This document shows, piece after piece, positions 23,507 to 43,667 of a stretch of DNA of 49,384 nt. Both the position numbers and the translations under genes were made by a program. The notes under the pieces were generated by a model. That model did not search any database. It saw nothing but the letters and a program-made list of their open reading frames with translations, and was not told where the DNA came from. The stretch is from Chrysochromulina tobinii (Eukaryota > Haptophyta > Prymnesiales > Chrysochromulinaceae): assembly GCA_001275005.1 (NCBI GenBank), contig JWZX01003011.1, positions 1-49,384 of the forward strand, in the 5' to 3' direction. Numbering within the stretch: the stretch's first letter is position 1; each line of letters begins with the position of its first letter.

Positions 23507-24956
23507 TCACCTGCTTCGCAAGCCAGCTTCAATGAGCAGATCAAGCACATCATCAGGAAACTTCATCCTGTGCTTGTTCAGCCACAGCAGCTGCAAGACA
23601 AATCGCTGGGTGGTGACGTTGAACATCAAATGATCTTTGCGAGACCAATTGACCATATCCCAGACTTTGACCGTGTTGTCGTCCGATCCAGACACAATCT
23701 TGGTCCCGCCTGGGGAAAACGCGACCGAATTGATGTCCCTGCTGTGGGCGTTCGTCTTCTTGCTCATCAGCTCCAGTTTGGCTGCCATGCAAGGCAGCAG
23801 GTGTCAGTTTTGGCCAAGGAGGGGCATTTCGAGGGCTCGCGGTGCACCCGAATCCCAGACTTTGATCGTCTTGTCCTCCGATCCGGACACGATCTTGGTC
23901 CCGTCCGGGGAAAACGCGACCGAGAAGATCCTGCCGCTGTGGGCGTTCGTCTTCTCGCTCAACTGCACCATCGTGCCTGCCAGACAAGCCAGCAAGCGTC
24001 AGTTTTGACCAAGGAGAAGTGATTTGAGGGCAAAAGCACACCCGAATCCCAGACTTTGATCGTCGTGTCGTCCGATCCGGACACAATCTTGGTCCCGTCC
24101 GGGGAAAACGCCACCGACCTGATCCAGTTGCTGTGTGCGTTTGTCTTCTCGCTCAGCATCTCCAGCTTGCCTGCCAGACAAGCCAGCAAGCGTCAGTTTT
24201 GGCCAAGGAGGCGCGATTTGAGGGCTTGCGGCGCACCTGAATCCCAGACTTTGATCGTCCGGTCGTCCGATCCGGACACAATCTTGGTCCCGTCCGGGGA
24301 AAACGCCACCGAGTTGATGCAGTCGCTGTGGGCGTTCGTCTTCTCGCTCAGCAGCTCCAGTTTGGCTGCCAGGCAAGCCAGCAGGCGTCAGTTTTGGCCA
24401 AGGAGGGGCAATTTTGAGCTCGCGGCGCACCAAAATCCCAGACTTTGATCGTCTTGTCGGCCGATCCTGACACAATCTTCGTCCCGTCTGGGGAAAACGC
24501 CACCGACATGACGAAATGGCTGTGGGCATTCGTCTTCTCGCTTAGCATCTCCAGTTTGTCTGCCAGACAAGCCAGCAGGCGTTAGTTTTGGCCATGGAGG
24601 GGCGATTTTGAGCTCGCGGCACACCTGAATCCCAGACTTTGATCGTCTTGTCGTAAGATCCCGACACGACCTTGGTCCCGTCCGGGGAAAACGCCACCGA
24701 CTGGATCCAGTCGCTGTGGGCGTTTGTCTTCTCGCTCAACAGCTCCAGTTTGTCTGCCAGGCAAGCCAAATGGCGTCAGTCTTCGCCAAGGAGGGGCGAT
24801 TCGAGGCTCCGGCGCACCAAAATCCCAGACTTTGATCGTCCCGTCGTCCGACCCCGACACAATCTTCGTCCCATCCGGGGAAAACGCCACCGACCTGACG
24901 ACGTAGCTGTGGGCGTTGGCCTTCTCCGCTACACAGTTGATGAGCGTCGCGATCAT
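23507..24956 (-). CDS. Seven-blade WD40 beta-propeller protein, one exon per blade
   Basis: Exons (minus): 24956-24818, 24753-24625, 24559-24431, 24365-24237, 24170-24042, 23976-23848 and 23781-23507. The five middle exons are each exactly 129 nt (43 codons), and the introns are 64-66 nt, all phase 1. Joined, they give 352 aa with no stop. Each exon encodes one blade of the type [22 protein letters not shown]. Seven blades close a propeller, and a 45-residue helical tail follows. Acceptors read CTTGYCTGGCAG, CTTGCATGGCAG or close; donors are GTGCGC/GTGTGC/GTGCAC; a branch-like CTGAC or CTAAC lies about 22-25 nt before the acceptor. A pyrimidine-rich tract ending CGCAG stands just before the first ATG, so an upstream non-coding or short coding exon is likely. 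Role: protein-interaction scaffold; no partner can be named. Confidence 0.85.
23782..24817 (-). repeat. 194-bp exon+intron tandem amplification in the WD40 gene
   Basis: Unit: a 129-nt exon plus a 64-66-nt intron, about 194 bp. Introns at 24754-24817, 24560-24624, 24366-24430, 24171-24236, 23977-24041 and 23782-23847. The introns are as alike as the exons; most share CCTTGGCCAAAACTGACGC. The array therefore arose by duplication of genomic DNA, introns included, and was recent or has been homogenised. Confidence 0.9.
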
Positions 24957-28251: not shown

Positions 28252-30973
28252 ATGAACCCATCTCTACAACGCAAGCTGCGCCGCTCCATGGAGCCCGAGT
28301 CGGCGGAGACGCTCGCCGCCTTGCGCTCGTTCGACGCCGAGCTGCTCCCTGAGAACACGGTCAGCTCGCGCCGCGCGCTGCTCTCGCGCATCGAGGTACG
28401 TGGCCTCACGCTCAGCCACTCGCTGCTGTCCATGTTTGGCGAGCTCCAGACGGCGCTCGACGCGGCCGACGCCGAGGCCTGCTGTCTCGCCGAGGCGTGC
28501 GGCTCCATCTCAAAACAACTCCAAGACAGCCGTGCGGCGACCGAGATGCTGCTCTTGCAGACGGAGCGTGTGCGCAAAGAGCTTGCGGCGACAGAGCGAC
28601 GCGCCGAGCTCACAGTCGCATTTGAGCGCGCGTACACGCTCACCGAGGACGAAGAAGAGCTTCTCAACGCGCCCTTTGACGCGCAGTCGCCCTTTGGGCC
28701 CGCATCCGAGCTCGCGCCGCTGCTGGCGGTGCTGCAGCGCGTGCACGAGATCCACGCACGCGCCAAGGCGCTGCTGCTGGGGCCGTACCAGCGGCTGGGC
28801 CTCGAGCTCACGTCGTCGATGGCCGCGCACGAGGAGCGCGGGCTCGGCCTCCTCTACCGCTGGGTGCACGAGCAGTGCCGCGTGCTGCCGCTCCAGGCAT
28901 CGGCCACCTCGCTGCGTCCCCTCCGCCAGGCGCTCGAGGCGCTGCGCCACAAACCAACGATGCTCAGCTACTGCCTGAACGAGGTGGTGCGCTGCCGGCA
29001 GCAGCCGCTCCTGGCCGCGTGGAGCGCCTCGCTCGGCGCCGCCGACGACGCCGACGACGCGCTCGACACCGCGCGGCTGCGCGCCCTCGACACGCTCGAC
29101 ACGGCGCTCCGCACGCTCCGGTCGGCCCTCGTGGCTGAGACATCGCTGCTGCGCCAACTGATGCCGCCAGCGGCAGCGGAGGCGCCGGCGGGCGAGGGGG
29201 GTGAGCCCGTCGAGGGTATGGGCCTGGCGAGCTCGCTCAGCTCAGCGACGGAGCCGATTGCCTCTTCGCTTGCTGGCCACGTGCGTGTCTTCTTGCGCGC
29301 TGCCCAAGAGGGCACGTCGCTCGTGAGCCTGGGTGTACAGCTCGCCAACCTCCACCGGCTTGCCGGTTTGTTCGAGGTCCATGGGCGCGTGCTCTGCCCG
29401 ATGCTAGGCCTCTCCCTCGAGGCCGCTGAGGCCGCCGCCACCGCCGCCACCGCTGCCGCAGCCGCCGCCGCCGCCACCCCCCCCACCACCGCCCCCGACT
29501 CTGCATCCGCCATCGATGGAGATGCCGCCGCCGGCGGCGCTCCGCGGGCGCCCGCGGCAGCGCCCCTCGCCACGGCCATCGCCAACGGGCTCGCCGAGAG
29601 CTCCGCCGCCCTCGAGCGGCGGTTGGGCGCCGTGCTGAGCGCTCTGGCGCGCGCGTCCGAGGGGGCTGGCGCGTCGGTCACGCCGAGTGCCGCGTCGCGA
29701 GGCTCTCTCACCCCTTCGGAGATCGTGGCTGAGGGTGTGCGCGCTCTCGAGGCGCTCATCCATGCACACGCGGCCCTCGTGCTGAGCGCCGCGGCCGTTG
29801 CCTCCGCCGACGAGGCGGCGACGGCACTCTCTCGCGCCTCCGAGCGTGGCGCGAGCGCGCTGCAGCGGCTGACCATCCAGGTGCTCGCCACGTGCCATGC
29901 AACCTCTGATGACCTCTGATGACCTCTGATTGCCTCCCTCGTTGCGTGCAGGTGCTCGCCACGTGCCATGCGACCTCTGATGACCTCTGATGACCTCTGA
30001 TTGCCTCTGATGACCTCTGATCGCCTCCCTCATTGCATGCAGGTGCTCGCCACGTGCCATGCGACGGCGGCGGCCCGCAGCGGCGCCCCGGGCATGCCGC
30101 GGGGGAGCACTGGCGCCTCGTCTCTCACGGGGCTGCTCGCCCTCCCCGGGGGAAGCGGCGGTGCTGCTATGGGCGCGGGCGCCGTCGCGGGCGGGCTAAC
30201 GTCTCCAGAGAAGCGAGTTTTGCTCCTCAACTCCCTTGAGCTCTTGCATGCCGCGCTCAACAGCGGGCGCGCGGCGGCCCCCATCACGGGCACGACGCCC
30301 TCCGCTACGGCCGCCGCTGCCGCCGCCGCCGCGACCGAACGCCTCGTCGGCCCGAGTCGACCGGCGGTGGAGAGCGCCATCGAGGCTGCTCTGGCCGAGC
30401 TGGGCCGGGCGGCCGCTGAAGAGCTCATTGGCGAGTGCGGGCTCGGAAGCAAGCTGGCGGCGCTGCAGACGGCGGAGGCGCAGCCGCACTTGCCGATGGC
30501 CAGTGTCCTCGGGCTCGAGCCCCTCGCCCTCGCCACCGCCATGCGCTCCTTTTATGCGACGCTCTTCCGGCGCGGAGATGCGCTCGTGCCGGCCGCCGAG
30601 AAGCTCACGGCGGCGCCTCTCCGCAGGCGCGCCGTCGCGGCGGCCGCGCGGACGCTCGCCTCGACGCACGCGCACATCCACGCGCTCGTTCGGCGCAAGG
30701 GCTCGGGCTACGATGCGCCTGAGACAATCCTGCTCCATTCGCCCGAGGAGGTCGAGACGCTACTCGATGTGATGCCGCCGCCAGCTCCAGCCCCACCGCA
30801 GCCACCTCCCTCGCCCCGCGCCCCTGTGGCATCTGCACCACCACCACCACCTGCGACCCCCGCTCCACCACAGCCACCACCTGTGACCCCCGCTCCACCA
30901 CAACCACCACCTGCCCCGAGCGTGCCGCTGCCATCCGAGCGTGCCGCTCCTACCCCTGCTCCTGCTCCGACCA

Positions 30974-31031
<58 letters not shown>

Positions 31032-31050
31032 ATACCGCGGGTGGTGGTAG
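28252..31050 (+). CDS. COG6: COG6, conserved oligomeric Golgi complex subunit 6
   Basis: Two exons, 28252-29880 and 30043-31050 (phase 0), give 878 aa. The ATG at 28252 is preferred over an upstream GTG. The N-terminal coiled-coil matches COG6: LRRSMEPESAETLAALRSF, then NTVSSRRALLSRIE, then LSHSLLSMFGEL, and LLYRWVHEQCR further on. The C-terminal block APETILLHSPEEVETLL is the conserved COG6 end. After it come about 90 extra Pro/Ala residues (PPPAPAP, then PAPAPA), a tail other COG6 proteins lack. COG6 belongs to lobe B of the COG tether and acts in retrograde intra-Golgi vesicle tethering. Upstream it shares a 184-bp divergent promoter with the membrane-protein gene. Confidence 0.9.
29881..30042 (+). 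other. Intron of COG6 made of two direct-repeat units
   Basis: Two units of 71 nt (29881-29951) and 91 nt (29952-30042). A 23-nt string starting CAG|GTGCTCGCC occurs three times (29878-29900, 29949-29971, 30040-30062), at both edges and at the unit junction. Between copies lie decamers of the type GACCTCTGAT. It may be one 162-nt intron or two consecutive ones; only the whole removal restores the COG6 frame. It carries TGA stops in several frames. Confidence 0.85.
30974..31031 (+). repeat. Hexanucleotide GCTCCT array coding Pro-Ala tail
   Basis: About nine GCTCCT units in frame encode Ala-Pro repeats at the end of COG6. It is a slippage-prone tract with variable length expected between strains. 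Confidence 0.85.
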
Positions 31051-31404
31051 TTGTCATGTGGCGTGGGCGCCAGACCACTGTAAGTCGTCAGGCGGCCATC
31101 CACCTGGGCGGAGGCCCCGTGGAGCCCGTCGGCGCGTAGCGCTGGCCGGTGGCCGGGAACCTGTCCGACGCCCGGAGAGGGAGACGGAGATCGGGCCGGG
31201 AACCAATCACTTTGTGAGTTCCCCGGCCCTCCCAGAGTGTGTACGTCCCGCTTCAGTAACGGTCCTATACTAGCCTCGCTATACACAGAGGTGAAGACTT
31301 CACGAGTTCTCAAAGGAGGCCCAAAGAAGTTTTACCTAAGAACTCGAATCGGAGTGTTAACAGCCCATTCACACAAGAGGCACAGGCTGCACAAGAGGCC
31401 CGAA
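31051..31404. other. COG6 3' end and glycosyltransferase leader
   Basis: No gene is supported. The region is GC-rich up to about 31250, then moderately AT-rich up to the ATG at 31405, which suggests the promoter and leader of the downstream gene lie in the second half. Confidence 0.4.
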
Positions 31405-32442
31405 ATGCATGCCGCTGTGCTCATGAGCTTCACCGCCGACTACGAGCTCGGCCACATAACATTTCCGTACAATAAGCAGTACGCTGACAAGCACGGATAT
31501 GACTTTGTTTGCAAGATTTGGCCGCCTTCAGATTGGATGACAGACAAGTCCAAGCGGCACCCGACTTGGGACAAGGTGGAGATGATCATCGAGCTGCTGA
31601 CTAGCCTGCTCAGAGGCGGCGGGACGACCGTCTCTGCTGACACGACGCATCTGCTCTGGGTTGATGCGGATGCGGTGGTGCTCAATCACGCAACGAGCCT
31701 CGAACAGCTTTGGACGGGCGTGCCCTCGTCGACTGAGCTTCTCATTGGAGAGGACCTGTCGACCACGTGCCTCGTGAACTGCGGTGTCTTTTGCGTGCGC
31801 GTCTCGGAATGGAGTTTGAAGCTCTGGACAGACGTGTGGGCCTCACCCATGTCCGTCAGGTGGCACCGCTCGCCGCACCGTGAGCAGAGCGCGCTATTGA
31901 AGCAGCTTGTGGCACGGGGCGAGGGCTTGAACCATGTGCCGTTGCCGTTCCACAGCTACTGCGGTGGTCCGAAGCTCAAGCTCTTTCCGCATGTCGCGGT
32001 GTTGCCTCGCCATGCAATCAATACCAATCGTGGCGACGTGCGCCAACGAACGCCAGTCAGCTGCAGCGGCGATGACGAGGAGGGCAGGAACCTCACCTAT
32101 CGGTGCGACTTCGTCTTCCACGCAGCTGGCCGCCCGGTCCTCATGCGCGACGGCAACGATGCTCATCATCCGCCGCGTTATTGCAGCAGCAAGGAAGAAG
32201 CGTTGAGGGCGATGCTCGTGCACAGAGGGCTTTCATTGGAGCCGCGACAGGAGCTGGTGGACACTATGGACCCGCCAGCTTGTGTGAACGCGCTCCCCCC
32301 GGCGCCGAAGGCAAGCTGCGGCCTGGTGAATCCGCATCTCGCGCAAGCCCGAGAAAAGATGCTTAGTTCGCCAGGCTTGGGCGTCACCATCGCAGCGATC
32401 GCTGTGGCTGTATATATCGCCATCGCACGGCAAAGAGCATAA
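31405..32442 (+). CDS. GT34-like galactosyl/mannosyltransferase with C-terminal membrane segment
   Basis: 345 aa from the first ATG. Pattern of the Gma12/Mnn10 family: AAVLMSFTADYELG strand, NKQYADKHGYDF, WDKVEMIIELL, then HLLWVDADAVVLN with the DxD at residues 87-89, and CGVFCVRVSEWSLKLW. GT34 enzymes use UDP-galactose, GDP-mannose or UDP-xylose in the Golgi. Known members have a type-II N-terminal anchor; here the only hydrophobic helix (VTIAAIAVAVYIAIA) is at the extreme C-terminus, followed by ARQRA. Either a 5' exon is missed or this is a tail-anchored variant. A Cys-rich region (HSYCGG, VSCSGDDEE) lies in the second half. Confidence 0.75.
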   Translation: MHAAVLMSFTADYELGHITFPYNKQYADKHGYDFVCKIWPPSDWMTDKSKRHPTWDKVEMIIELLTSLLRGGGTTVSADTTHLLWVDADAVVLNHATSLEQLWTGVPSSTELLIGEDLSTTCLVNCGVFCVRVSEWSLKLWTDVWASPMSVRWHRSPHREQSALLKQLVARGEGLNHVPLPFHSYCGGPKLKLFPHVAVLPRHAINTNRGDVRQRTPVSCSGDDEEGRNLTYRCDFVFHAAGRPVLMRDGNDAHHPPRYCSSKEEALRAMLVHRGLSLEPRQELVDTMDPPACVNALPPAPKASCGLVNPHLAQAREKMLSSPGLGVTIAAIAVAVYIAIARQRA

Positions 32443-32542
32443 GAAAGCTATCATATCGTAGTACGTTGCGGTATGGCGCCCTTACAGCCGTTCGTGAACT
32501 AACGAAATGGCGCGTACTATCATCATCATCAATAAACACCTT

Positions 32543-33082
32543 TTAATCTGATTTCCGTCTGGCCTCCGCATCGCCTGGTGCTGGGTCACCTGCTTCGAGT
32601 GCAATGGCGCGCATCTTCCCGCTATCGTCTTCCTCGACACGGTACGTCCGCACGTATTTCAGTGCGTGCGCCAGCGCAGCCTCGTTTGCAACACCATACT
32701 TTTTCGCAAGTGAGCCCGCATCCCATTTCTCAGGTTGGCGAGCGTGCAGCGCAAGCAGCTGCACGAGACTCTCCGCCGAAATTCCGCTGGGTAATTCCTC
32801 ACCTGTCGCACCCGGCTGCGGTACGGTACTTGGCTGCGGTACGGTACTTGGCTGCGGTACGGCAGGTCTGGTGCCGCCCGTAGCCTGGTTGGTGGCGAGG
32901 ATCGTGGATTTGTTTAGCATGTCTGTCAATGCGCGGTTGCGCTCGATTTCTGGTGTGGCTGGAGCCTTGGCTCCGCCGGCTTGTGAGCGAGGCGGCACGA
33001 TGGGCGAGGGTGGGAACGCGGACGGTACCGAACGGGCAACTAAGGATCGATCGGGCACGGCGCGGCTCCAACGGCCACCCAT
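32543..33082 (-). CDS. NDUFAF4: NDUFAF4-like complex I assembly factor
   Basis: 179 aa from an ATG. The C-terminal domain SAESLVQLLALHARQPEKWD.. followed by LAKKYGV and LKYVRTYRV lines up with the NDUFAF4 tail (SIVEALTLLNNHK...ETWTAEKI...LLKY). The N-terminus MGGRWSRAV recalls the N-terminal Gly-start of NDUFAF4, which in animals is near-membrane and mitochondrial. NDUFAF4 assists mitochondrial NADH dehydrogenase assembly. A Pro-Gln-Pro-Ser-Thr-Val repeat (32814-32870, three 18-bp copies) sits in the linker. Convergent with the GT34 gene (100-bp gap). Confidence 0.72.
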   Translation of the reverse strand: MGGRWSRAVPDRSLVARSVPSAFPPSPIVPPRSQAGGAKAPATPEIERNRALTDMLNKSTILATNQATGGTRPAVPQPSTVPQPSTVPQPGATGEELPSGISAESLVQLLALHARQPEKWDAGSLAKKYGVANEAALAHALKYVRTYRVEEDDSGKMRAIALEAGDPAPGDAEARRKSD

Positions 33083-33733
33083 CGGCCGCGATGCTCCCAG
33101 ACAGGGAGTGCCCCCGTCGGAGACGAGAATCGAGAGTCGCCGCTCAGAACGACGCTAAGGTTACCGGTATCGGGCCGCCAGTACAACACGCGACGTGGGA
33201 CGGGGCACTCTCGCCGACGCACGAAACTAGAGGCGCGTCGCGCGAGGTACATGTACGGCGGCTATCGAATGAGCCGCGTGGACGAACACACCAACACAAA
33301 CCGCCCACATGCGCATGGCGCGGTGGGAGAAGGGTGCAACACACGGGCATGGGGCGACGCCACCCAGTTCATAGGTGTAGCCGTCACAAGCTCCGCACGG
33401 AAATAACAGCCGAGCGCCGCCGACGACAAAGGTCCATGGCGGGATTAGGGAGGGATGACGCAGCCGAGCGGGAGACAGCGGGAGACAGCGGGAGATGGCG
33501 GGAGACAGCGGGAGATGGCGGGAGACAGCGGGAGACAGATCCATGGTCGATCGCACGCACGGATGCAATGCGAGGGCGCGCGTACGGTTATAGGAAGCAG
33601 GGGCAAAGGTGGGGGCGTTGTAAGCGGCATGCAGCCTCGTGTAGGGGGAGCGCCACGGGACAACTTCCCACGGGGATTGTGGGGGTGGGCGCCACGCCCC
33701 ATACTCGCACGGGCTCATGCGGTGGCGGCGGCC
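33083..33733. promoter_or_regulatory. Upstream region of NDUFAF4, with decamer minisatellite
   Basis: About 650 bp between the ankyrin-NTF2 stop and the NDUFAF4 start. It contains seven exact-register decamers at 33471-33540 (GGAGACAGCG or GGAGATGGCG). No gene is supported; scattered frames here are low-complexity. Confidence 0.5.
33471..33540. repeat. 10-bp minisatellite, seven units
   Basis: Units start at 33471, 33481, 33491, 33501, 33511, 33521 and 33531 with no indel. Two variants alternate, GGAGACAGCG and GGAGATGGCG. The last unit ends in AT instead of CG. Confidence 0.95.
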
Positions 33734-35305
33734 TCACTGGGCCATGCACATGTAGGGCTCGAAGCTCGAGATCAGCCCGTCGTCCGTGAACGTAAGCGAG
33801 TGCATCGCCTTGCTGCCACCGCTCGTGAGCAGCTCAACGACTACCTTCGAGGTCTCCGTCGAGACATGCATCGAGGCGACAGCCACCTCCTTCTCGCGCA
33901 GCATCACCTCGCGAAGCAGCCGTGCCGTCTTATTGGGCGAGCCTGGGTCGCGCAGCTCCGCGGCGAGGAGGGCCTGCACGTTCTCGCCCGCCTTCCACGC
34001 GTCGTAGAACTTTTGCGCGAGCGTGGGCAGAAGCGAGAAGAGGACGAGCGAGTTGGCCGACGAAAGCGAGCGTTGGCGCTTCATTCCGATGCGCTCCTCG
34101 AGGAGGGCGCGTGTCACATCACACGAAGTGAGATCCGCGGGCAGCTCGCCGCTCATCGAGACCATGCGCCGGTTGGCGCCGAGCGCGAGCAGCGACTTGA
34201 CGCATCCGGTCGCACCGCGCCGTGCAGCGTAGTGCAGCGCCGTGTACCCGCCCCAGTCGACAGCATCGATCATCGGGTCGCCCATGGCCAGGTGGCCAAG
34301 GAGTAGCTTGCAGCAGCCCTCGGCGGCGCGGTCGCACGCCCAGTGCAGCGGCGTGCGCTTGTCGCGGTCCGCGTGCCGCAAATCCGCCTTGCTCTGCAGG
34401 AGCGCCTCCGCTGACTCGGCTGCGTCCACAAGCACTGCCCAGTGGAGCGGAGTCCTCTGCGCCCAGTCGACGGCATCGACTTCGGCTCCCGAGGAGAGCA
34501 GAGCCTTGACGCAGGGGAGGGCGTTCTTACCGCTCGCCCAGTGCAGCGGCGTGCGCTTGTCCGCGTCCGCCTCGTTCACCAGCGACGGCGCGAGTTGCAG
34601 CAGCCGCAGCAGTAGGATCGTCGACTCAGAGCACGCCCCTAGTCCACCCGAGAACTGCATGGCTAGGTGCATCGCCGTGCGCCGCTCCTCGTCGAGGGCG
34701 GCGGCGTTGGCATTCGCGTCGAGGAGCACGAAGCAGCACACCAGCTCGCCGCGCATGAGCGCCAGGTGCAACGGCGTCTGCTGGCTCGCGTTGACCGCGT
34801 CCACCTCAGCGCCCTTGGCGAGGCATGCACCGAGCAGATCGGCCGCGCCGTGCGCCGCCAGCCAGTGAACGGGTGTCATCCGCTTATCATCGCGCGCCCG
34901 CAGCGAGGCGCTCGTGTGCTCGATCAGGTAGCGCGCCGCGCCGAGAGCCTTGAGCTCGCACGCGGCGAGCAGCGGGGTGCGCCTAGCACAGTCCTCTGCG
35001 TTGACATCGGCCCCACGCTCACACAGCAGCTTGACCAACTTTTCGGTGCTCTCCGCGTCGTCGGCGGAATCGCACGCGAGGTGGAGCGGCATCTGACCTT
35101 CGGCGCCTACCGCGTTCACCTGCGAAATGGCCGATCCAGGCGCGTGAGACAATGCACATGGGCACCTAATTGGGATTCTGAATGCATCCGCGCGCACCAT
35201 TATGCTCCCAGAGGGTCCCGAGAGGACCGACTCGAGCTTCGTGACATCTCCGTGCAAGATGGCGTCCCACATCTCCGAAAATTGCTCGGTCACAGCGGTC
35301 GACAT
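33734..35305 (-). CDS. Ankyrin-repeat protein with C-terminal NTF2/SnoaL-like domain
   Basis: Up to 523 aa from the ATG at 35305. Ten or so ankyrin repeats (PLHLAC, TPVHWLA, TPLHLAL, TPLHWAS, TPLHWAV, TPLHWAC, TALHYAA) are followed by Arg/Ser linkers and a C-terminal alpha+beta domain (FYDAWKAGENVQALLAAEL through VASMHVSTETSKVVVELLT and ISSFEPYM) that looks like a SnoaL/NTF2-like fold. Bases 35197-35120 are an in-frame 78-nt stretch with donor GTGCGC and acceptor CGCAG; it interrupts the first ankyrin repeat, so the true CDS is probably two exons of 109 and 1386 nt, giving 497 aa. Divergent from the EF-hand gene. Role: scaffold or small-molecule-binding adaptor; unproven. Confidence 0.8.
   Translation of the reverse strand: MSTAVTEQFSEMWDAILHGDVTKLESVLSGPSGSIMVRADAFRIPIRCPCALSHAPGSAISQVNAVGAEGQMPLHLACDSADDAESTEKLVKLLCERGADVNAEDCARRTPLLAACELKALGAARYLIEHTSASLRARDDKRMTPVHWLAAHGAADLLGACLAKGAEVDAVNASQQTPLHLALMRGELVCCFVLLDANANAAALDEERRTAMHLAMQFSGGLGACSESTILLLRLLQLAPSLVNEADADKRTPLHWASGKNALPCVKALLSSGAEVDAVDWAQRTPLHWAVLVDAAESAEALLQSKADLRHADRDKRTPLHWACDRAAEGCCKLLLGHLAMGDPMIDAVDWGGYTALHYAARRGATGCVKSLLALGANRRMVSMSGELPADLTSCDVTRALLEERIGMKRQRSLSSANSLVLFSLLPTLAQKFYDAWKAGENVQALLAAELRDPGSPNKTARLLREVMLREKEVAVASMHVSTETSKVVVELLTSGGSKAMHSLTFTDDGLISSFEPYMCMAQ
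35120..35197 (-). other. Probable in-frame 78-nt intron in the ankyrin-NTF2 gene
   Basis: Begins GTGCGCG directly after an ATG codon and ends TTTCGCAG before GTGAACGC. Its translation contains Pro/Arg/Cys that do not fit an ankyrin repeat, while its removal joins SGPSGSIM to VNAVGAEGQMPLHLAC, a standard repeat. Length is divisible by three, so retention would add 26 residues. Confidence 0.65.
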
Positions 35306-35717
35306 GGCGAGACGAGCAGCAACACTAAACCGTGCTGCGAGATGCCATCGTGCGGAGGTGCAGTCTCGCTGTCGCGTTAGGCAGCGGGGTGATTAGACGC
35401 AATTGGAATTCCCGAACAGGAACCCGGTCTCCCTCTTCAGCGAGTTTTATTGGAAGCAACACTGGCTTCACGCAATACGGACATTGATCACGGAGGGGAG
35501 GAGGGTCGCGGTCGAGTCGCGGCACGTGCAGCGGCTGACCAAGCGGCTGACGACAGTCGGCAAGCTCGACCATCTACCTTCAACTCTCTGCAATCCTATA
35601 TTGGCCGGCGCTCGCGCCAGGCCGCTTAAGGGGGTAGGTCTGACCCACCCTAGACCAACCCCCTTAGGCCGCTCCCTCTGTGGGGAAAACGTGAATCGTT
35701 CACAACGGCTCTACATC
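35306..35717. promoter_or_regulatory. Divergent promoter with 15-bp hairpin-forming inverted repeat
   Basis: 412 bp between divergent start codons. Arms TAAGGGGGTAGGTCT (35628-35642) and its complement (35653-35667) match at 14 of 15 bases around a 10-nt loop. It lies about 50 bases before the ATG of the EF-hand gene, so it could be a DNA-binding palindrome or a leader hairpin. Confidence 0.5.
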
Positions 35718-38353
35718 ATGGCGCCTGCGACAAAGGCCACGACGCAGCGCACCGAACCTGCCACGGTCGTCGTCGGTGTCAGCGAGCTGCTGCTCGCGAA
35801 GAACACTAAAAAGGCTCGCGTGCGCGTCGAGCTTCCGGATGGCCTGGCCACGGCGCAGCAAACGCCGGCCATCGACATGCAGGGCGGAAATCGCTCAGTG
35901 CGTGTGGACTGGTCGATCTCCATCCCTATCCAACCGGGAGGCTCAGCATGGACGGCGCTCGAGGCGGCGCTCGAGAGGCGTGCACAGCCCGAGGCGGCCG
36001 CGATCCGCTTCACCGTGCTCGACGAGAGTACGGGAGTGATCGGCGACGCGGTCGTGGACCTGTCGCGCCTCGCCGAGTACGGGCGATATGATAAGGAATC
36101 GCCCAAGATGACGCTTAACGTCGTCGACAAGCGCGGCGTGGCGCACGGGCAACTGATCGCTCACGTGCAGGCGCTGGAGGCGGTGCGGCTCGTGCTAAAG
36201 GGGGCCCCATCGCCACCGCCGCCGCTACCGCTGAGCATCGAGCCGAAGGTGAAAAAGGCCTTTGAGACCTTTGACAAGAACGGCGACGGCAGCATCGACG
36301 CGGACGAGCTGCGCGAGGCGCTCAAGTACCTCGGGCTGAACGCGTCGGCCGCGCAAACCCGCGAGGTGCTCGAGCGCTACGACACGGGCTTTCGCGACGG
36401 CAAGCTCGACTTGGGCGAGTTTGCTCGCCTCGTGCAGGACTTGAACTCGTTCACGGGCGGCGGCGGCGCCTTGGATGGTGGGATGGGGACGGCCGACGAG
36501 CGCGTGCGTGTGGCCTTCTCGCGCTTCGACGTGGATGGCAACGGGCGGCTGGATGCAGTCGAGATCAAGCAGGCGCTCGCGACGCTCGGCATGGTCGCCA
36601 GCTCATCGGAGGCCGTCGCCGTCCTCCAAAAGTACGACACAGACCGCTCGGGCGGCGTCGAGCTCGCCGAGTTCGCACAACTCGTCAACGACCTGATCGC
36701 CTTCCAAGGTGGCGGCAGCAAGGACATCCCACACGAGGTGCGCAAGGCGTTCGCGCACTTCGACAGTGACGGCAACGGGCGCATCGACGCCTTCGAGCTG
36801 CGCACGGCGCTGCATCACCTCGGCGTCGAGGCCTCTTCCGCCCAGGCTCTGGCCGTGCTCAAAAAGTATGACGTGGACCGAAGCCGCGAGCTCGACATTG
36901 ACGAATTCGCGAAGCTCGTGATGGACGTGCGAGAGTTCCAAAAGGGGGTGAGTCGCGACAAGGTGCTCGAGCAGCTCAAGCTGCCCCAGGTCGTCATGCT
37001 GCTGAACAGGCATCGCACCGCGCTCGATGAGCTCTTCTCCGCCTTCGCGCGCCGTGACGAAACCTTCGTGCTCGCGAGCGGGCTCGCGCACACTGACGAG
37101 GAGCTGCGCGCGGCTTTCGCCACCTTCGACCCTGAGGGGAGCGGCGCCATCGACGCCAAAGCGCTCGGGGGCGCGCTCGCGCGCCTCGGCGTGCCCACGA
37201 ACGGCGAGCAGGCTGAGAGGGTGTTGGCGCGCTACCAACCAGGGAGTGGCTCGAGTATGGTTGGCCTCTCGGAGTTTCGCGCTCTGGTGGCCGACTTGCG
37301 CCGCTTTGCCACGGCCGCGGCGCCGGAGCCGTCCGCGGCCAAGGGGGGCGCCGTGCTGAGCGAGGCGACCTCGCGCATGCTCGGGGTGGAGGAACTCCTC
37401 TCGATGTGCCACGGCTTCCGTCTGGTGCCCGATAGGCTGCGTGAGGAGGAGGTGAAGACGGCCGTGCGGGAGATGCAGCCGAGCTCAACAGCCGTGGGGC
37501 AGCTGCAGCCCTTCAAGCGGCTCTTCTTCGATGAGGTGCTGCTCCGAATGGCGCACGTGGTGGCCAGCCGTACTGGAGGAGTTCAGAGCGCCGAGCCACA
37601 CGTGCGGCTCGAGGAGCTCTTTCAGTTCATGAGGCTCGACACGGTCGCGGCGATGCGCATGCTCATGCGCACGCACATGCTGATCGAGGCATGCACGAGC
37701 GGCGAGCTCGCGCAGGTGCGCCACCCTGATGACATCTGATTGCGTCTGATTGCGTCTGATTGCGTCTGATTGCGAGCTCGCGCAGGTGCGCCGGCTGCTC
37801 GGCGAGGGCGCACCCGTGGATGGCCGCGGCTACGACGGCTGGTCCCCGCTCCACCGCGCGGCCGCGTACGGGCATGAGGAGGCTGTTGAGGCACTTATCC
37901 ACGCCGGCGCCTCGTTGCCGCTGAAGACGCCGGACGGTTTCTCGGCGTTGCACTGGGCGTGCGAGTACGGGCACCCGGGCGTGGTGCGCCTGCTGCTCAA
38001 GGCACGTGCGCCCGTCGCCGACGTGAGTGACGAAACCCTCTGGACGCCGCTGCACCGCGCCGCCCTCGACGGCCACTTGGCCGTCGTCAAGCTCCTCTTA
38101 AGTGAAGGTGCACCCGTGGCCGTGCGAGACCGCGAGGGCGACACGCCGCTGCACGACGCCGCGCGCAACGGCCACTTGGCGGTGGGTCAAGGCACTGGTG
38201 GCCGCGTGGCCCGTGGCCACGCCCCTCGATGAGCCGAACCACGTGGGGCTCTCGGCTCTCGAGCTCGCGCGCCGCGGCAGTCGCGGACCCGTCTACGAGT
38301 TTCTGCAGGAGAAGACGAGTCAGAAGCGCAGCTCGGGCAGCATGTACCTGTGA
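35718..38353 (+). CDS. C2-like / EF-hand / ankyrin protein, two exons, with a +1 frameshift
   Basis: Exon 1 is 35718-37715 and exon 2 is 37786-38353 (phase 0). The ATG at 35718 is preferred over a TTG at 35403. Residues about 10-155 resemble a C2 domain. Then come four EF-hand pairs. Canonical loops: DKNGDGSIDADE, DVDGNGRLDAVE and DSDGNGRIDAFE. Degenerate loops: DTDRSGGVELAE, DVDRSRELDIDE and DPEGSGAIDAKA. A helical bridge follows. The splice makes ACTSGELAQ|VRRLLGEGAP, a perfect ankyrin repeat, and three more ankyrin repeats follow. At 38184-38186 GGG should be GG: the frame shifts inside GHLAV(V)KALVAAWP and ends at 38232. With one G removed it runs to 38353 (about 854 aa). Either a sequencing slip or a real truncation. 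Predicted calcium-regulated scaffold. Confidence 0.75.
37716..37785 (+). other. 70-nt intron bounded by a 21-bp direct repeat
   Basis: The 21-bp repeat occupies 37702-37722 and 37772-37792 and contains the junction CGCAG|GTGCGCC at both edges. Between the copies are decamers in strict 10-bp register: CCACCCTGAT, GACATCTGAT and TGCGTCTGAT (three). The CTGAT core also fits a branch-site consensus. Confidence 0.9.
38184..38186 (+). other. Apparent single-G insertion (frameshift) in ankyrin region
   Basis: GGCGGTGGGTCAAGG reads GHLAVGQG in the open frame. Deleting one G gives GHLAVVKALVAAW and a further 40-residue ankyrin-like tail. The homopolymer of three G is a typical place for an assembly or sequencing indel. 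Confidence 0.7.
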
Positions 38354-41520: not shown

Positions 41521-41888
41521 GAAAAAGCGATTTGATTCTGTTCATGAGGGAATTCACATAAAGATTCCGTTTGGTACATGTAGGTCGTTCTTCCATGTCG
41601 ATTCATTCATGAGCGATCTGTTTAAAGGAAGAGTCCGATTTCCGAAACGAACGCGACGTCGTTCCTGCAGGGATTCGGACCGGTCCGAATCCGCAGAATT
41701 ATTTTTTTTGTTTTTTGGAAAGGTGGTGCCCTGCAACGAGACGCCGAGGTCGAGAGTTTTTAGAAATTTTAGAGTTTTTCGAGTATTTTCGTGTGTTTTC
41801 CATGGGAGTTGGTTTCGGGCAGGGGAGAGTTTCCTTTAAGAAAGGTGGATTCAAAAGTTCGCACGACGGTTTTGCAGTGCTCTAAATC
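41521..41888. promoter_or_regulatory. Divergent promoter with perfect 22-bp palindrome
   Basis: A perfect palindrome at 41671-41692 (half-site GGATTCGGACC) lies between the DENN start (41520, minus) and the Gln-rich start (41889, plus). A T-rich tract (41700-41800) follows. Function inferred from position and symmetry. Confidence 0.6.
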
Positions 41889-42642
41889 ATGCGGGCGGCT
41901 CAGCCGCGACCGTCGACGGCGGCGAAAGCGAAAGCCGCGGCCAGGGAATCCGGCGGAGCGGCGGCGGCGCTGCTGGCCCGCACGCACTCGGCCGCAGGCC
42001 GTGCTGAGATGGAGGCGTTCGCAAAGTGCGTACTCATGGAGATGGAGGCGATCGACGGCAACCTCGCTCTCTCGACCATGCCATCCGCAGCAGCGGCGGC
42101 GGCGCTGCTGCACTCTTTAGCCAACGCCCCGAGGAACGCAGTGGCGCAGGCACGCCGCTTCTCGCCGCAGAAGTACGGTGCGGCACCGCCACCTCAAGGG
42201 CCAGTGATGCCGCCACGCACGAGCTCGTTCGTGCACCTCAGCGCCAAGGGCTCCTCCTCACAGCCCACGTTAACGCATCCCGAACTGCAACGATCGCTCT
42301 CCGGCTCGGACCTGACGCGGCGTCGGATCGAGCGCGCCATCTCAGTCTACGCACTGCGTCGAGCGTACGTCGAAGAGCGCGTCACACCACTCTACAACTT
42401 CAGGGCGCTCGCCAAGCCGCCCGCAGCGCCGCGGTGTGATCCGCCGCAATACGCGCTCGTGGAGGAGGCCTATAGTGCCGCGCGCGTGCGCCAGCGGAAT
42501 CGTGCGCCGACGGATGCCAAGCGCGAGCGCATCATGGAGGAGGATCCCTTCCCGCCACCGTTTGAGTGTGCCTCGGCCGAGTGGGAGTTTGGGCAAGAGC
42601 AGCACCAACACTATCAGGAGCAGCAGTACCAGCAGCAGCAGT

Positions 42643-42679
<37 letters not shown>

Positions 42680-43667
42680 ACAGCGGGCGGTCCGCTCATC
42701 GTCGGCGCAGAGGCACGATGAGCGCTCACCGCGGCGCTCATCGCAATCAGTGGCAATCAGTGGCAATCAGTGGCAATCAGTGGAGCTCTCACCACAGCGC
42801 TCACCACAGCGCTCACCGCGGCCGACCATCACCCCACCCAGACCGAGGTCGAGTGGCCCGTCGTCCGTCGTAGCCGCGAGCCTGCAGAATCTGCAACTCT
42901 GGCCGCCGGCGACGGCGCCACTGCCTGTACATCCGAAGACCGGATTGGACCGCTTCGGTAACGGTAGCTCCGCTCGCGCGAGCAGTAACGAGCTACCGGC
43001 GATGACCTCGCGACCGGGTACGGCCTCGCGGCCTCCCTCACGTGGCGGAGGCTTCTCTCTGAGCGGTCCGCCCTCGCGACGACCACACACGGCCGAGGCT
43101 GCGCCACTCTCTGTCGAAGGCTGCTACTCCGAGCCGTCCTCGCGCCCGCCCTCGGCGGCACCAGTCACGGCTGCCCACGTAGCACAGCACGATTGGCCCT
43201 CAGCGGCGCCTTCGCGCCCAGCGTCCGCCAATGTGTGGGCTGACGTGTCACACCCACGCCGGAGCGCCGCGCTGAGCGCTGCGACCGCTGAAGAAGACCT
43301 CGACGCCCTCGCTTCGTCAAAGCCAGCTGTGGAAGCGGCCCCAGCAGCCTCCAGCGGGCTCTCTCAGTCACGTCCCTCGTCGAGCGGCCTCCGACCCGTT
43401 CGGATCAATCGGCGGTGGGTGCATACGGCACCCTCGCGACCGGTGCGCCGCAGCACCCTCCAAACCGGCTCAGACTCCCCATGGATGCCCTTCCTTGCGC
43501 CCATGCGGAGCAAGCAGTCAGCCGATGACCCCGCCGTCGATCCGCGGCTGCTCACCAGCGCGTCGGTTGTCAGCATTGAGCCGGCGCTCAACAGCAGCTC
43601 CGTCGGCAACGCGCTCACAGCCACACATCAAGCGGTCCCTGTGCCGGGAGGGTGGTCGATCGATTAG
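41889..43667 (+). CDS. Gln-rich, Ser/Pro/Arg-rich protein, function unknown
   Basis: 592 aa from an ATG. The N-terminal 210 residues have an Ala-rich head, a helix (MEAFAKCVLMEMEAID) and a moderately conserved-looking block RRAYVEERVTPLYNFRALAK...MEEDPFPPPFECASAEWEFG. Then a Gln run (42605-42680), a 10-bp repeat region, and 250 disordered residues with recurring RP.S(A/G)/SRP motifs (SRPGTASRPPSRGG, SRPASANVW, SRPSSSGLRP). No domain or membrane segment was recognised. Such RPxSA-rich tails occur in some microtubule-linked proteins, but that is only a hint. Confidence 0.6.
42605..42680 (+). repeat. CAG/CAGTAC trinucleotide array coding polyGln
   Basis: Mostly CAG codons, interrupted by TAC and CAC; encodes about 20 Gln with a few Tyr/His. 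Confidence 0.9.
42741..42783 (+). repeat. Coding 10-bp array TGGCAATCAG
   Basis: Four units at 42741 (first base pair differs), 42751, 42761 and 42771, plus a partial. As 10 is not a multiple of 3, the reading rotates and gives SVAISGNQWQSV. Read on the minus strand the unit is CACTGATTGC, close to the GTCTGATTGC unit of the 37716-37785 intron. Confidence 0.85.

Follow-up and report, generated by a model that had tools for sequence, protein, structure and literature searches.

Short acceptor-bearing inserts between long exon duplications as a possible source of new introns in the haptophyte Chrysochromulina tobinii

Two introns flanked by exon repeats

The 49,384-nucleotide stretch of contig JWZX01003011.1 analyzed here, referred to below as the window, contains a COG6 gene and a gene for an EF-hand/ankyrin protein, each interrupted by a short intron that holds an array of related 10-bp units and is bordered by long direct repeats (Table 1). 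Joining the EF-hand/ankyrin exons at 37715/37786 gave a protein identical over 814/814 residues to NCBI entry Ctob_001753 of Chrysochromulina tobinii, which identifies the window as part of the genome of this haptophyte. The paper describing that genome (PMC4580454) reports 59 Mb, 63.4% G+C, 16,777 genes and a mean of one intron per gene, with a MAKER2 annotation that drew on RNA-seq, and its main text, as far as accessible, uses the word "intron" once and makes no mention of intron families. A first-pass annotation of the same DNA had placed both introns, their 21-23-bp flanking direct repeats and the decamers within them, and all of these were borne out by re-reading and by the arrays found with Tandem Repeats Finder (TRF).

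In the COG6 gene, the 23-bp repeat CAGGTGCTCGCCACGTGCCATGC is present in three copies. The middle copy was absent from the first-pass annotation, and its presence indicates that the intron consists of two units, of 71 and 91 bp. The reading frame is open across the junction once the intron is excised, while unspliced reading meets a stop codon within it. Introns in two other sampled stretches (L010 and L022) likewise end in CATTGCATGCAG followed by GT, as does the COG6 acceptor. A homologous protein from ENA (P0001), which matches Pfam COG6_N and COG6_C and is 92% identical to the COG6 protein, runs uninterrupted across the intron site. Four others (P0002-P0005) are 97-99% identical across ~70% of the query and continue into the intron, ending in QVLATCHATSDDL; two of them, P0004 and P0005, share the source of P0001 and are unspliced predictions, so that P0001 most simply represents a site without the insert. 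A more distant relative, P0006, is also uninterrupted. Judged from these proteins, the COG6 intron is probably a recent gain.

The EF-hand/ankyrin intron lies between two copies of the 21-bp repeat GCGAGCTCGCGCAGGTGCGCC. Its excision gives an open frame over the junction, and the annotated protein Ctob_001753 carries exactly this predicted junction. The intron is without the 3′ end CTGATTGCCTCCCTCATCAG that is typical of the family described below, and both of its splice sites would come from the duplicated exon. Five near-identical relatives (P0009-P0013) all read into the intron, and the site is uninterrupted only in diverged proteins (P0023, P0027, P0063 and P0065; 44-55% identical). Since the intron is present in all five near-identical relatives and the uninterrupted proteins are distant, a recent gain is indicated for COG6 alone among the two window introns, although both had been taken at first to be recently born.

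Table 1. Features of the two intron-bearing genes in the window
Feature	Position	Strand	Remark
COG6 upstream coding exon	28252..29880	+	one open frame after excision
COG6 direct repeat copy 1, CAG/GTG..., 23 bp; predicted source of the 5′ splice site	29878..29900	+	
COG6 intron, 162 bp, double unit of 71 + 91 bp	29881..30042	+	P0001 protein uninterrupted; P0002-P0005 read into intron
COG6 decamer array, unit ACCTCTGATG	29902..29930	+	TRF
COG6 direct repeat copy 2	29949..29971	+	
COG6 decamer array, unit GACCTCTGAT	29972..30027	+	TRF
COG6 acceptor end CGCCTCCCTCATTGCATGCAG, family-A-like variant	30022..30042	+	
COG6 direct repeat copy 3, exonic copy	30040..30062	+	
COG6 downstream coding exon, up to stop	30043..31050	+	
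EF-hand/ankyrin upstream coding exon	35718..37715	+	joined protein = Ctob_001753
EF-hand/ankyrin direct repeat copy 1, 21 bp, contains junction	37702..37722	+	
EF-hand/ankyrin intron, 70 bp	37716..37785	+	junction present in annotated protein
EF-hand/ankyrin decamer array, unit TCTGATTGCG	37735..37774	+	TRF
EF-hand/ankyrin direct repeat copy 2	37772..37792	+	
EF-hand/ankyrin downstream coding exon, up to stop	37786..38232	+	joined protein = Ctob_001753

Insert families across the genome

Exact matches were counted across a copy of the genome of 53.15 Mb in 2253 contigs, with the reversed pattern as control. The sequence TCTGATGNNNTCTGATG had 3927 matches (1997 + 1930, matches within one array counted apart) against 1 + 0 for its control, and the expectation that the decamer family would extend beyond the two window introns was thus upheld. 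The control was 0 for each of the other patterns: three TCTGATGACC units (992 matches, overlapping matches in one array counted apart), CCTCATCAGGTNNG (1103 copies), the 19-base 3′ end of what we call family A, TGATTGCCTCCCTCATCAG (879 copies, 590 of which are followed by GT), and the core of family B, GCATGCAAGTGCTCACCACGGC, which is unrelated to family A (504 copies).

The sampled family-A copies have in common the 3′ end CTGATTGCCTCCCTCATCAG or close variants of it, a feature for part of which the sampling chose, and some of them (L043, L064 and L071) have almost no decamer array. The array is therefore not the whole of the shared core that the first-pass annotation had seen in it. In the sampled introns of family B, a variable tract rich in pyrimidines comes after the core and, as a rule, leads to CCCCACAG. 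CTGAT fits the general yUnAy branch motif, and the arrays may multiply branch sites, as the first-pass annotation supposed, but family B by eye has a single motif of this kind and no array. The decamer arrays are probably local expansions of the branch-site unit CTGATNNCCT. If each end is counted as one intron and the average of PMC4580454 is applied, we estimate very roughly that families A and B would make up a tenth of all introns.

Neither TGATTGCCTCCCTCATCAGG nor two decamers were found in viral contigs (a set that may omit sequences closely related to this genome), and a viral source was rejected on this ground. Prokaryote contigs (257 billion bases) contained 2 stretches with the two-decamer 20-mer, which were taken as chance matches. 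Within C. tobinii, decamer arrays are very dense on both strands within 16 kb of contig C33 (L009-L010), and long exon repeats at L012- 1282 and 7464 come with a third type of acceptor end, CCTCATTAG, maybe a further subfamily.

Architecture of the sampled introns

The sample comprised 12 arbitrary 10-kb stretches (L017-L028), 8 stretches chosen for their arrays (L009-L016), and short stretches at 100 family-A ends and 40 family-B cores. Family-A sites had a GT after the end by construction, and those lacking a motif similar to CTGAT close to it were removed beforehand, uncounted. The usual order was a first exon copy beginning at GT, the insert with its branch-like motif, pyrimidine tract and CAG, and a second exon copy. 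A direct repeat (score ≥10) that starts at an upstream GT and recurs right after the acceptor AG was found at 83/138 A sites and 25/36 B sites, compared to 5/2713 and 1/680, respectively, when the right flanks were swapped. In all, 108/174 sites had adjacent exon directly repeated on either side of the insert, the feature of Daphnia-type staggered-break introns. Chance repetition was rejected by this combined control and by an earlier set of swapped flanks (57/102 sites against 2/1990).

Dropping tandem, nested or over-long cases (23/83 A and 1/25 B sites) left 84 clean introns, 60 of family A and 24 of family B; the two window introns are outside this set because their acceptor ends differ. 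The repeats in the clean introns were 11-44 bp long with a median of 20 (repeats much under 10 bp being undetectable), exceeded 12 bp in 79/84 and were perfect in 38/84, the longest perfect ones measuring 43 and 44 bp. The introns themselves were 56-229 bp long (median 83), and all but two reached 68 bp (82/84). Longer repeats went with shorter inserts (rho -0.71, n = 84), the pattern that a lower limit on intron length would be expected to produce, and the base before the GT was G in 69/84 introns. Removal of copy 1 and the insert left the codon phase continuous in 66/83 introns, where ~28 would be expected (A 49/59, B 17/24; the flank of one A intron was too short for this test), and in 37/48 in an earlier test made before tandem and nested rows were dropped. 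Intron length was not a multiple of 3 in 61/83, with all three remainders represented. Around the clean introns the orientation was sense in 68 and antisense in 15 (n = 83), and the noisy orientations of the arrays were 27 sense, 12 antisense and 5 unclear (n = 44). Six periods were tried for the duplication lengths, and we claim none of them: p was 0.21-0.25 for those near 10-11 bp and 0.0025 for 8 bp.

One of the family-B introns, 73 bp long and located in L026, has a 43-bp repeat with one mismatch and lies in a gene with relatives assigned to Pfam PF02535, which we take to be the ZIP transporter family. The relative P0127 (96%) reads into this intron, and P0128 (89%) is uninterrupted there and apparently reads into the next intron; on this protein comparison, the L026 intron is probably a recent gain as well. 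At the protein level, absence from close relatives was therefore found at two sites, COG6 and L026, while the uninterrupted relatives for the EF-hand intron are all distant. The proposal of a recently born intron family with a shared core, made originally from two copies, thus gained support from the very many copies, the long flanking repeats, the mostly restored codon phase and the uninterrupted COG6 relative, with the reservation about the core given above.

Two further loci had a more complex structure. At L023 5021-5407 (+), five units of 74-78 bp, each made of an exon repeat and a family-A end, stand in succession, and this is a new intron duplicated in tandem as a whole unit. At L010 4440-4640 (+), a 27-bp exon repeat follows CATCAGGT, not CATCAG, and the two bases past the usual insert end are present; the inner GT, if used, would lengthen the message by 21 nt in frame.

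Junction microhomology and the position of the splice junction

At the 5′ junction, the end of the exon copy matches the bases expected just before the repeat unit of the insert over a mean of 2.04 bp, against 0.40 by chance, and 0/50,000 permutations reached the observed mean. This test covered 27/60 A introns, the other 33 having no periodic 5′ unit; an earlier set of 21 introns gave 2.48 against 0.41. Part of this microhomology could stem from slippage over the junction once the insert was in place.

We also investigated 44 arrays from the 10-kb stretches and the window, unselected by 3′ end, with a long repeat defined by a score of ≥12 (with swapped flanks, scores had a 99.5th percentile of 12 and a maximum of 16; n = 1654). 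A long repeat was present in 23/44, and in our reading the junction was at its left edge in 6, inside it in 6 and at its right edge in 3. At L009- 8214 (24 bp; outside the 23), L012- 4103 and L013- 5667, the predicted donor GT comes from the insert. In L015, the intronic copy TCCCTGCAG differs from the upstream copy TTCACGAAG in what looks like a later improvement of the acceptor. Such diversity is simpler to account for when insertion takes no heed of splicing.

Other repeats in the window

Further exact non-simple 21-mer repeats 40-200 bp apart were found in the window only at ~2772-2932, 23845-24701 and 34337-34363. The periods at these three sites are 147, 193-195 and 198 bp, and they are presumed to be coding tandem repeats. 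At 42743-42783, a plus-strand open frame (41886-43667) contains (GCAATCAGTG)4, whose unit is the family unit CACTGATTGC read on the other strand; it is possibly an antisense array retained as coding sequence. About seven copies of a different unit, AGCGGGAGAC, also with a 10-bp period and by eye unrelated to the intron families, occupy 33467-33538. The window had no Rfam match at the gathering score.

Discussion

We propose, at a probability of roughly 0.55, that C. tobinii has at least two families of short inserts that bear the acceptor half of an intron and are flanked by 11-44 bp exon copies, and that these arise by repair or template copying and are filtered by splicing. The inserts contain a likely branch site, a pyrimidine tract and CAG, usually without a donor, and the first exon copy would provide the predicted GT donor. 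New introns are likely to have been born in large numbers at these inserts. Repair of a staggered break, or template copying, would insert the element into an exon: an exon end would pair over 2-4 bases with an existing copy, copy it and rejoin upstream. The intron so formed would be spliced out, leaving the message unchanged. The spliceosome would then act as the filter, and the introns that survive would mostly be ~68 bp or longer in total, with a GT, an AG or the pair of them usable within the repeat or at its edge. The preference for break repair or template copying follows from the microhomology and from array junctions that lie at the left edge of the repeat, inside it or at its right edge. 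Direct observation covers the copy numbers, the repeats, the codon phase, the uninterrupted proteins of relatives and, at junctions open to the test, the microhomology; that unannotated copies are spliced, that repair is the route and where the copied DNA came from is what we infer. A more far-reaching version, which we offer tentatively and at somewhat less than even odds, describes intron making at scale: acceptor-half elements as small as ~30 bp would enter exons by break repair, the donor half would come from the duplication of up to 44 bp of exon, and any suitable coding GT could become a donor, with insertion ignoring splicing and the spliceosome selecting afterwards.

Several observations weigh against this proposal. 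No repeat was detectable at 55/138 A and 11/36 B sites, 21/44 array regions were without a long repeat, and 8/23 long-repeat arrays fell outside the scheme (7 without AG-GT at or in the repeat, 1 repeating the intron's own end). GT did not follow 289/879 family-A ends, some of which are inner copies of tandem units. Codon phase was broken in 17/83 tests, microhomology was zero at 7/27 testable junctions, and in a screen of all tetramers AGGT was outside the top 25 repeat starts. The sampling was targeted, with 82/84 clean cases coming from array or family-end stretches and 2 from arbitrary ones, and the uninterrupted relatives at the COG6 and family-B sites are predicted proteins.

To these is added the fit of a serious rival, namely retroposition, in which target-primed reverse transcription at a nicked exon would copy in an excised intron RNA (3′ end ...CATCAG or ...CCACAG). 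Such insertion usually leaves a fixed 3′ end, a ragged 5′ end, a variable duplication and 5′ microhomology, and the 3′ end beside GT, the ragged 5′ ends, the variable 11-44 bp duplications and the microhomology agree with it. However, the fixed 3′ end is partly built in, since sites were chosen by that end, and it is at these sites, not at the junction-spanning copies, that the combination of fixed 3′ end, ragged 5′ end and variable duplication was seen. A CATCAG end is absent from array introns in which the junction lies within the repeat or at the repeat's end (the window EF-hand intron, L009- 8694, L012- 4103 and L013- 5667), and we regard RNA-primed insertion as unlikely on balance. Full reverse splicing of a whole intron leaves no target duplication and was set aside for that reason.

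Movement by a transposase, as has been proposed for most introner families, taken to be non-autonomous DNA transposons, would account for the many similar copies and for presence and absence between relatives at two sites, and a target duplication is known to supply the 5′ splice site in Symbiodinium introners, and both sites in Florenciella (PMC9860276). However, the duplications in that survey, where present, are 3-9 bp, compared to the variable 11-44 bp found here (shorter ones being undetectable), and the terminal inverted repeats known in some introner families are nearly lacking: among the clean inserts, 0/24 of family B and 2/60 of family A had ends that form a perfect inverted repeat longer than 2 bp. 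This speaks against a cut-and-paste transposon, which we consider improbable, and the inverted-end test also failed to bear out the reading of the family-A ends as a transposon-like inverted repeat. Tandem duplication of AGGT-containing exon, with slippage making the arrays later, is suggested by the whole-unit tandem copies at COG6, L023, L033 and L022. It would leave nothing but duplicated exon, whereas the sequence between the repeats is common to many loci and has no trace in the proteins of relatives at two sites; given the shared inserts, tandem duplication is disfavoured, and we think it very improbable.

The origin of new introns is a long-standing question, and fresh cases in which target, insert and footprint can all be read are few. 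C. tobinii offers many hundreds of copies in two insert families, perfect exon duplications in nearly half of the clean cases (38/84), and two datable sites at which a close relative's protein is uninterrupted. Duplication length, junction microhomology and the length floor are directly measurable, so that models based on repair, RNA priming or a transposase differ in predictions that can be checked.

Comparison with known systems

The copy counts and the structure of the sampled introns show many similar sequences serving as introns of different genes, which, together with presence and absence between relatives, is also the hallmark of the introners surveyed by Gozashti et al. 2022 (PMC9860276). 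According to that survey, one or more signs of DNA transposition are seen in most families. The family that it illustrates from Chrysochromulina sp. has 4-bp duplications and its own 5′ splice site, the reverse of the C. tobinii inserts. Low-complexity families were filtered out in the survey; this could have removed decamer arrays and suggests that such a filter could conceal families of this kind. Among the papers listed by literature searches, we recognised none as describing the present architecture, and C. tobinii may figure in the supplement of PMC9860276. The introner elements of Amoebophrya (PMC7789003) are likewise repeated introns with direct repeats at exon/intron borders, but they have direct repeats of 3-5 nt, inverted repeats of 8-20 nt and non-canonical splice sites.

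Other likenesses are to footprints of break repair and of duplication. In new introns of Daphnia (PMC4202315), a piece of the neighbouring exon recurs as a direct repeat at the far end, which was interpreted as a staggered break that had been filled in; the C. tobinii introns resemble this, but the Daphnia repeats are 4-12 bp, against 11-44 bp in C. tobinii, where the inserts belong to shared families. In a set of 213 introns of all classes (PMC11782384), border direct repeats of 4-30 bp (mean 11.4) were read as footprints of insertion or break repair, and long border repeats as such are therefore not new; that study differs in having no insert family and in seeking repeats within 80 bp of borders across unrelated organisms. 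In AGGT tandem genomic duplication (PMC3443670), the duplicated exon gives the splice sites, as here, and C. tobinii adds a shared insert between the copies. Finally, end joining of breaks with protruding ends (PMC5730883), including 46-nt overhangs, was studied in mouse cells with nuclease-made breaks, in work not concerned with introns; tandem duplications were reported and microhomology was scored there, and the target duplication was variable, as it is in C. tobinii.

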